Source of the DNA: Candidatus Melainabacteria bacterium | GTDB lineage: Bacteria; Cyanobacteriota; Vampirovibrionia; Obscuribacterales; Obscuribacteraceae | DNA: 37,715 bases | NCBI GenBank assembly: GCA_023250095.1 | Contig: JAHFBI010000007.1 | Location: 1-37,715, forward strand | Direction: 5' to 3' | Shown: piece by piece, positions 9,623-11,194 of the stretch | How the letters are laid out: the number at the start of each line of letters is the position of its first letter | Numbering within the stretch: position 1 is the stretch's first letter | Notes under the pieces: generated by a model | What the model was told of the DNA's origin: nothing | The model's input: the letters and a program-made list of their open reading frames with translations, nothing else | Database searches by the model: none | Program-made: the position numbers and the translations under genes

Positions 9623-10783
9623 TCAGGGGCTGCACGGAGAAACTTCTACATGCAGTGGAGAGACATAGGAGATAATCTCCTTGTAGCTGATGGCGCCAAA
9701 GCTCAGGCACGCCGAAAGGAGACAACCTTGCTGCCAACGGATTCTGTCAACCTGGCACCAATACCAGGCAAGATAGTTCTGAAGATATTTCCGGCTTATT
9801 CCCTGAAAGTTAGAGCGGATAACAGCAATAATTTCCTCGACAAGTTTCATCGTTGCTTCAGAGGCGGAATGCTCGCGAGGTGAAACTTGACTGGACAGTC
9901 TGGAGCTAACGTAGCGGTCGCCTGGCACGCTCTTGATGAGTCCCGAGAGCTCTAACATCATAAGAGTGGCGAGAAGGGACCCTGCAGGCATGCTCGTTTG
10001 CAGGCACAGGTTGTCGAAGTTAACTTCCTCGGTTAAGAGTATTTCGTATATTTGTCTCTCTTTAGGGCTAAGGGCTGTTATAGATGTTGTTTCTTCAGCC
10101 ATCGTTTTATCCGAGAGCGCCGTGGCTGAGTCTTGCTGGCAATACGTATCGGTCAGAGCTTTTTCTTCGGAGGCAGAAGGCGCCAGTGAGGCAATACTCC
10201 GAGGCAAGGTCTCATGGCGCAAACCGGCAAGCGTCTTACTGCGCTCCTTCTTTTCGATTATTTCTTGCTCGGCAATCGGGTGCTTGTTGGCTGGCGTTTC
10301 CCGGCTGCGCCTGCAAAACAAGACGCCGAAAAGTCCCGAAGGCAAAGCCTGCGCCCTCTCTGCGACTTGGCTCTGAATGACCATTGTAAGCTTCTTTAGG
10401 ATGGACAGAGCAGAGGAATAGGCGATGCCGACAAGTTTGTGGAATTGCCATGAGTTCAAGCGCACACCGTGTTCAAGCAACCAGATGGCTGCCATCCAGG
10501 GGCGGGCAGATCTTATGCGGTGGAAGAATGTTCCAGCCGTGAGCCAGGATTGCTTGCCACAATGAGGACACTCAATTGTTCTGACGCCATGGACTTTTGC
10601 TATGCTTCCGTAACCACAATGTTGGCACTTGTTATTCCCGTCAGAAAGCGCCAGACACAATTGCTCCATACAGTCCTGTTCTGTAGGGAAGCGAGCGCTA
10701 AACTGGCGCCAGTGGAACTCGAGAGTGCCTTCGCTGTCGGGATGGTCTCCATCTTCGTCAGAAATACAGGAAATATCATTCAT
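9623..10783 (-). CDS. IS1595-type zinc ribbon plus DprA-like winged helix protein (transposase-derived)
   Basis: Residues about 24-135 look like the N-terminus of IS1595-family transposases: FHWRQFSARFPTEQDC, a zinc ribbon with C53/C56 and C72/C75, then a TAGTFFHR turn and an LNSWQFHKLVGI helix pair. The likeness stops where the DDE catalytic core should begin. A variable linker (about 140-235) follows, then residues 238-293 match the DprA C-terminal winged helix (LSPKERQIYEILL, then MMLELSGLIKSVPGDRYV). Near 326-350, GISRKYLQNYLAWYW faintly recalls the IS1595 transposase C-terminus. Without a catalytic domain it is more likely a DNA-binding regulator than an active transposase. AGGTGG seven bases upstream supports the ATG at 10783. 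The family assignment rests on motif recall. Confidence 0.7.
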   Translation of the reverse strand: MNDISCISDEDGDHPDSEGTLEFHWRQFSARFPTEQDCMEQLCLALSDGNNKCQHCGYGSIAKVHGVRTIECPHCGKQSWLTAGTFFHRIRSARPWMAAIWLLEHGVRLNSWQFHKLVGIAYSSALSILKKLTMVIQSQVAERAQALPSGLFGVLFCRRSRETPANKHPIAEQEIIEKKERSKTLAGLRHETLPRSIASLAPSASEEKALTDTYCQQDSATALSDKTMAEETTSITALSPKERQIYEILLTEEVNFDNLCLQTSMPAGSLLATLMMLELSGLIKSVPGDRYVSSRLSSQVSPREHSASEATMKLVEEIIAVIRSNFQGISRKYLQNYLAWYWCQVDRIRWQQGCLLSACLSFGAISYKEIISYVSPLHVEVSPCSP

Positions 10784-11194
10784 GGTCTATCCACCTGCTT
10801 TATTTGTTTTGACGTCTTCTGTTGAAAAAGTGTTCATTCACCGGGCAGAGTCATTTGTTGAATGTTTTCTTGTTTGAAAGGGCGTTACTGACTGGTTCGG
10901 TCGACAGGGTGGCGATGTTTGTACGCACTCGCATGTGCAGCAGGTAGGGGCAGAAAGTAAACCGATATCGGTTTACTTTCTGCCCCTACCTGCTGGGATG
11001 TTGGAAGCCACTATTCCAAGTAAATATGTCAGATGCTCATGAATTTGGATTTCTTGTCTGATTTGGAGATGCACCCTAGCGGAGTGCCTAAATGGGGACT
11101 GATGTAATATGCGTGCAGCTTACTTTCCACTAATGTCAAAACAACTTTGTCAGGTTACATCCGCTCTGCAAATTTTTATCGGTTTCGTCGTTTT
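10784..11194. other. Intergenic region of 411 bp containing a large palindrome
   Basis: This region lies between the end of the protease gene and the start of the zinc-ribbon gene, both on the minus strand. Apart from the 58-bp palindrome, a ribosome site at about 10791-10796 and a TTGACA on the minus strand near 11133 without a well-spaced -10, I see no gene or RNA in it. Confidence 0.6.
10938..10995. repeat. Perfect 58-bp palindrome without a loop
   Basis: Two 29-base arms are exact reverse complements and meet with no spacer at a central GATATC (centre between 10966 and 10967). The left arm starts CAGCAGGTAGGGG and the right arm ends CCCCTACCTGCTG. Symmetry breaks at 10937/10996. No T-run follows on either strand, so it is not a standard intrinsic terminator. 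It sits about 155 bp upstream of the zinc-ribbon/winged-helix gene. It could be a fused pair of inverted transposon ends, a protein-binding site, a cruciform or RNA hairpin, or an assembly fold-back artefact. Confidence 0.95.

Follow-up and report, generated by a model that had tools for sequence, protein, structure and literature searches.

An earlier note on a 37,715-nucleotide stretch of Obscuribacteraceae DNA (contig JAHFBI010000007.1; the whole stretch analysed is hereafter the window) proposed that the gene at 9623-10783 fuses the DNA-binding part of an IS1595-type transposase to a DprA-type winged helix. The locus raises the question of what such a protein is: the debris of an insertion sequence, or a transposase taken over by its host, and in the latter case, what DNA its two modules would recognize.

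Architecture of the chimeric protein

The frame at 9623-10783 (-) begins with an ATG at 10783, is open for 386 codons with no internal stop, and encodes a 386-amino-acid transposase-derived chimera. Homologues with the same architecture were found in related genomes, where the earlier note had proposed to look for them, and because the arrangement recurs in at least 127 proteins it does not represent a chance fusion. Residues 47-90 (10514-10645, -) correspond to the IS1595-type zinc ribbon with its TAGTFFHR turn, assigned by conserved cysteines and hhalign; C53, C56, C72 and C75 are 98-100% conserved among 127 members, and the ribbon of these proteins would be expected to bind zinc. The HTH region of the transposase N-terminus occupies residues 91-140 (10364-10513, -), as judged by alignment with IS1595 transposases and by three helices in a structural model. 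Of the two Pfam checks proposed earlier, that for the ribbon (PF12760) fell below threshold on the window protein alone (E=0.42), and it was the family profile that settled the ribbon. A profile of 24 relatives matched 11 genuine IS1595 transposases, three of them verified with Pfam, at an hhalign probability of 99.85% (E=1.6e-30), in agreement with the proposed origin of the N-terminus.

The other Pfam check succeeded. PF17782 (DprA_WH) matches residues 231-288 (9920-10093, -) above its curated cut-off (E=1.4e-12) and is present in 23 of 24 members scanned; the winged helix is of the DprA type that had been named, at boundaries a few residues away from the 238-293 first given. The C-terminal tail, GxSRKYLQxYL..DRxRW (residues 308-377; 9653-9862, -), recalls that of IS1595, as had been suspected: it aligns with genuine transposases, and the NCBIfam model NF033547 (IS1595) matches residues 309-342 with E=1.1e-4, a score below the model's whole-protein cut-off. 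PF12762 (DDE_Tnp_IS1595) is sub-threshold, its last ~40 positions alone matching.

The catalytic core reported missing was indeed not found. Confidence in the hhalign alignment was high at the N-terminus (ribbon, HTH) and the C-terminus (GxSRKYLQxYL...W...LL.AC) and nil across the core, and the same gap appeared when the family profile was run over Obscuribacteraceae transposases. Where the transposase core starts, the family has the signature RRSxETPAxxHPxxEQ (residues 158-173; 10265-10312, -), which together with the SRKYLQ tail has the lowest mean entropy among all segments and contains no conserved catalytic acidic residue; no catalytic acids of a DDE core were seen in alignments of the family and the transposases. 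An AlphaFold2 model of the window protein (pLDDT 79) combines a winged helix with a helical tail, further helices and a small sheet resembling a zinc ribbon, so both folds expected from structure prediction are present, and an RNase H fold is absent from its order of elements. Foldseek against the PDB returned generic winged helices only, with no match under E 0.001. A DDE domain hidden in the linker was rejected, since Pfam, the model and hhalign show none. Because the profile gap covers the core and the model has no RNase H fold, we conclude that the IS1595 catalytic core was swapped for a linker and a winged helix.

The protein is thus related to two known families without belonging to either. 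With IS1595/ISXO2-like transposases (PF12760 plus PF12762, NF033547) it shares the ribbon, the HTH and the GVSRKYLQxYL C-terminus, but a linker and the DprA winged helix stand in place of the DDE core and the family is not mobile; lacking a catalytic core, it is not a transposase. With DprA (PF02481 plus PF17782) it shares the winged helix, nearest to that of Obscuribacteraceae DprA. The Rossmann-fold DNA_processg_A domain (PF02481), however, is absent from the window protein and is not among the families listed for 24 members, and for that reason the protein is not a DprA.

Origin of the winged helix

The winged helices of the family are nearest to those of Obscuribacteraceae DprA, with a mean best identity of 34% versus 28-29% for other families, in a comparison where Obscuribacteraceae DprA sequences outnumbered the others. 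A tree of the domain was poorly resolved because the domain is short. The window's genome keeps a normal DprA with PF02481.

In Obscuribacteraceae the DprA winged helix is also joined to other HTH proteins, both HigA-like (L206 2178-2756, -; L207 2265-2828, -; L208 2215-2838, +) and of the Cro/CI type (L239 1032-1676, +). Between L239 and the DprA encoded in its own genome, the winged helices share 66% identity. Long palindromes lie immediately upstream of the HigA-like fusion genes, with cores that differ from those of the family described here.

Distribution and domestication of the family

The window's genome holds nine family members, three truncated by contig ends; those paralogs that matched over their length are 40-52% identical to the window protein. 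Every one of the at least 127 full-length members is from Obscuribacteraceae, the window's own family, which includes Ca. Obscuribacter phosphatis. The genomes are metagenome assemblies or drafts throughout, and start codons of members were set by proximity to the domain. Among 60 relatives, members occur in Obscuribacteraceae only, and other families match solely via DprA's winged helix. A profile scan of 84,980 species gave 57 family loci and two ordinary IS1595 transposases; the 57 lie in Obscuribacterales-type assemblies, a few of them filed under other phylum names and coinciding, by their matches, with Obscuribacteraceae genomes. A first contig search with the single window protein as query gave no match, no plasmid match to the family was found, and a viral match (L355) was rejected as a member, being an ordinary IS1595 transposase.

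Copy number ranges from none to 24 per genome, with 24 paralogs in Ca. Obscuribacter phosphatis, and nearly every member is an open frame. The best identity between paralogs of one genome has a median of 36%, and apart from one pair at 83% no near-identical copies were seen. Eighteen one-to-one ortholog pairs of the congeneric genomes G027 and G035 gave dN/dS values of 0.12-0.29, with neighbours common to all 18 pairs and on both sides in 16. A FastTree tree contains genus-level expansions (G000, G006, G004) as well as conserved ortholog pairs. No fixed partner gene was found beside family members, whose neighbours are diverse.

Purifying selection, synteny and repeated expansion within genera strongly support the domestication suggested in the earlier note: these are stable, selected genes and not a moving element; the mobility that defines an IS1595 transposase is not seen in paralogs so diverged and orthologs so syntenic. 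Homologues confined to broken insertion sequences, which together with a DDE fold in the linker had been named as grounds for abandoning that view, were not found either: the intact diverged paralogs, dN/dS and synteny reject a broken element. We give hardly any credence to the idea that the proteins are functionless remnants of ordinary insertion sequences. Their IS1595 ancestry fits it, but the open frames, the rarity of close copies, the dN/dS values well below 1 and the common promoters described below do not, and selection and synteny refute it.

Several incomplete relatives were also observed. One genome without full family members (G026) encodes four proteins of 145-202 amino acids with an IS1595-like zinc ribbon and HTH only (L174, L175, L241, L242). 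Two shortened members (L240 991-1809, +; L243 1101-2027, -) have no SRKYLQ tail, and one G027 copy lies in two parts with a run of N between them (L115 3041-3826 and 5018-5464, -).

An ECF-sigma-type promoter common to the family

A count of upstream words in three genomes identified AAAAAGTTCA before 20/20, 18/19 and 10/10 of their family genes. The aligned promoter, TTGAACTTTTT-N12-CGTY, has the ECF-sigma form and is found in 113 of 128 members; its outline, GAAC-N17-CGT, is the pattern taken to mark an ECF sigma regulon. Conservation of the -10 CGT reaches 96%, and this element had no part in the selection. Exact matches number 46, 20 and 16 in three genomes (0 for the reversed control), and the pattern occurs in all 36 Obscuribacteraceae genomes tested, while 24 further genomes have it no more often than the control. 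The paralogs of the window's genome use a variant of this promoter, and the variant pattern matches the window once, as ATGAACACTTTTTCAACAGAAGACGT at 10812-10837 (-), 28 nt before the ATG of the 9623-10783 gene.

In three genomes from which regulon genes were sampled, the same promoter precedes ComEC, ComM, RadC, a RecJ-type DHH protein, a ComF-like phosphoribosyltransferase, Vsr, YraN, DnaE, an SbcC-like ATPase and DUF1800 proteins. It also precedes two ECF sigma genes (L283, L301), and because the sigma gene itself carries the promoter, this factor is the candidate reader. Obscuribacteraceae may possess a regulon for competence and DNA processing under ECF control. Of the two functions suggested beforehand, a competence or recombination accessory role gains from the promoter held in common with ComEC, ComM, RadC, RecJ and Vsr, and would fit the family proteins on that basis.

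About 14 proteins of a second paralog family follow the same promoter; their likeness was judged by eye, and one matched DUF6088. This second family, drawn from two genomes (L246, L248, L255, L266, L277, L278, L282, L286, L287, L289, L292-L295), looks AbiEi-like by eye.

Palindromes upstream of family genes

Upstream of the window gene lies a perfect palindrome of 58 bp (10938-10995), with the core AACCGATATCGGTT at 10960-10973. Palindromes whose core is ACCGATATCGGT or a variant of it, and whose arms are specific to the gene, lie upstream of genes across the family. In about two thirds of members a dyad with the core CCGATATCGG or one of the variants CCGTTAACGG, CCGAATTCGG and TCGATATCGA is found upstream of the promoter, and about one third have no recognisable dyad. 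The core dyad occurs in 76 of 118 family promoters but in 1 of the 48 regulon promoters that belong to other genes (p=2.6e-15). The arms are specific to each gene, yet their symmetry is often perfect through more than 20 bases of each half. The distance from dyad to promoter gave no significant helical phasing (p=0.6), and a covariation analysis of protein columns against dyad bases, which is confounded by phylogeny, singles out no DNA-reading domain.

The 14-mer AACCGATATCGGTT occurs at 23 places in the window's genome and 11-68 times in several Obscuribacteraceae genomes. Within Obscuribacteraceae it is confined to genomes that hold the family (20/26 versus 0/10 without it; Fisher p=3e-5), and in 24 genomes outside none was found. 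Variant cores may explain some of the six family-holding genomes without the exact 14-mer. These family-specific palindromes in promoters favour the other function suggested beforehand, that of a regulator, which the proteins may well have.

The sites lie between genes and also, apparently, inside ORFs (which were called mechanically). The palindromes might be intrinsic terminators or REP-like repeats, tied to the family by location as in RAYT/REP and possibly spread by an ancestral element. Their long perfect arms of unconserved sequence, the sites found between convergent genes, where a terminator would be, the tandem arrays and the clustering close to family genes would all suit such an origin. 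Dyads are, however, as common beside divergent upstream neighbours (20/45) as beside codirectional ones (31/71), many are apparently inside ORFs, and no member keeps a catalytic core able to move them. We regard this explanation as quite improbable; a dyad that merely terminates the upstream gene is disfavoured by neighbour orientation, by the enrichment at family promoters and by the sites inside ORFs.

A second alternative holds that the proteins repress IS1595 transposition, as core-less transposases that occupy transposon ends. They do keep the transposase's DNA-binding parts, and the genomes of highest copy number yielded no IS1595 core. Against this, winged-helix copy number showed no clear relation to the presence of IS1595 across 50 genomes, as judged by eye, and orthologs are syntenic and constrained in genomes without any IS1595. 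A crude search of the IS1595 elements of relatives for terminal inverted repeats gave one unrelated candidate and nothing resembling the palindromes. Repression of this kind is very improbable.

Tandem arrays were observed in G027, with five AACCGATATCGGTT palindromes in one (L303 1974-2202) and four in another (L304 1849-1982), 40-57 bp apart. G023 has 68 palindromes, many crowded on contigs C9, C53, C228 and C232 with roughly 40-150 bp between neighbours of a group; C232 also carries a family gene.

Clustering and matching of palindrome flavours

Most dyads of G027 lie outside family promoters. Palindromes in this genome are found near family genes, at a median distance of 22 kb where 74 kb would be expected (p=1e-4; the 27 sites include one in a gene's own promoter, which ought to be left out of the count), and in G005, 11 of 24 lie within 21 kb of family genes (p=5e-10). 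These statistics use exact 14-mers in two genomes, both picked because clustering was seen there.

The sequence, or flavour, of the neighbouring sites also agrees with that of the gene. The sampled neighbourhoods of 31 genes contain 45 further dyads, of which 30 have the flavour of the gene itself, without a difference over 12 bp, while shuffled flavours gave a mean of 14 matches and none of 5000 shuffles reached the observed count. Paralogs differ in flavour, as for L053 (TCCGTTAACGGA) and L057 (TCCGATATCGGA) of G005, and rare flavours recur around their genes: own site included, TCCGTTAACGGA is present three times and TCCGAATTCGGA five times.

The matching of flavours bears on who binds the sites. 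Another factor might bind the palindromes and control the family genes, while the chimeras have their role elsewhere, perhaps together with DprA and RecA on DNA entering the cell during transformation. The promoter held in common with competence and DNA-processing genes and the resemblance of the winged helix to DprA of the same bacteria speak for this. Yet the palindrome is absent in 10 of 10 Obscuribacteraceae genomes without the family, and a single master regulator does not explain why paralogs differ in flavour and why the local sites of each match it. We consider a separate binder unlikely.

Discussion

We favour, as the probable explanation, a domesticated and expanded zinc-ribbon/winged-helix family of Obscuribacteraceae in which each paralog would bind a palindrome specific to it, both in its promoter region and close by. 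An IS1595 transposase would have lost its RNase H catalytic core to a linker and a host-DprA-like winged helix, while retaining its DNA-binding N-terminus and C-terminal helices. Binding would most likely be by a symmetric dimer, each paralog recognizing the palindrome flavour (core xCCGNNNNCGGx) particular to it. The predicted site just upstream of its own promoter would allow autoregulation, and own-flavour sites would recur at a few further places within ~5-30 kb, inside and between genes. With a palindrome of its own at the promoter and further sites nearby, the protein would therefore act locally on its stretch of chromosome, perhaps as a local regulator or as a ParB/Noc-like organiser. 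An ECF sigma factor would turn on the family genes together with those for DNA uptake and DNA processing. Weighing against this reading are the third of members without a dyad, the six family-holding genomes that lack the exact 14-mer, the unphased spacing to the promoter, the covariation that points to no reading domain, the sites placed like terminators and, in G027, the majority of dyads outside family promoters. A more tentative extension, possible although we would not presume it, is a chromosome-marking system with many orthogonal protein-site pairs per genome, local domains of ~10-40 kb and ECF switching during DNA uptake or stress.

The favoured reading has parallels in known systems. 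ParB-parS, Noc and SlmA use palindromic sites scattered by the tens over genes and intergenic regions, those of ParB near its gene. The sites described here are similarly dispersed and near the gene, but the protein is unrelated, has many paralogs each with its own flavour, and has no CTPase. In RAYT/REP systems a transposase-derived gene is accompanied by dispersed palindromes concentrated near it. Such a tie is seen here as well, whereas the present family has no catalytic domain and its sites combine a conserved core with locus-specific arms.

Like transposase-derived transcription factors (eukaryotic host-transposase fusions, ZBED6; bacterial TldR), the family reuses the DNA-recognition part of a transposon without catalysis. 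It differs from these in joining a DDE-type zinc ribbon to a winged helix in bacteria, in its more than 20 paralogs and in its gene-specific palindromes. TnpB-derived TldR is a bacterial parallel (PMC13418256). A review of recruited prokaryotic mobile elements treats HTH and antitoxin-derived factors, and the terms IS1595 and DDE are absent from it (PMC8987985). No earlier description of the family was found in the open literature, a scope outside which most subscription journals fall.

New here are the common ECF-type promoter, the gene-specific palindromes, and their local clustering and recurrence of flavour; the gene first noted belongs to a large family with apparently cognate palindromes clustered around each gene. 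This would be a clear bacterial case in which a DDE transposase core was replaced by a host domain to yield a large domesticated family. The family offers what are predicted to be ready-made orthogonal protein-palindrome pairs, and the predicted DNA sites are directly testable. Finally, the results point to an ECF-sigma-controlled regulon for DNA uptake and repair in Obscuribacteraceae, non-photosynthetic relatives of the cyanobacteria.
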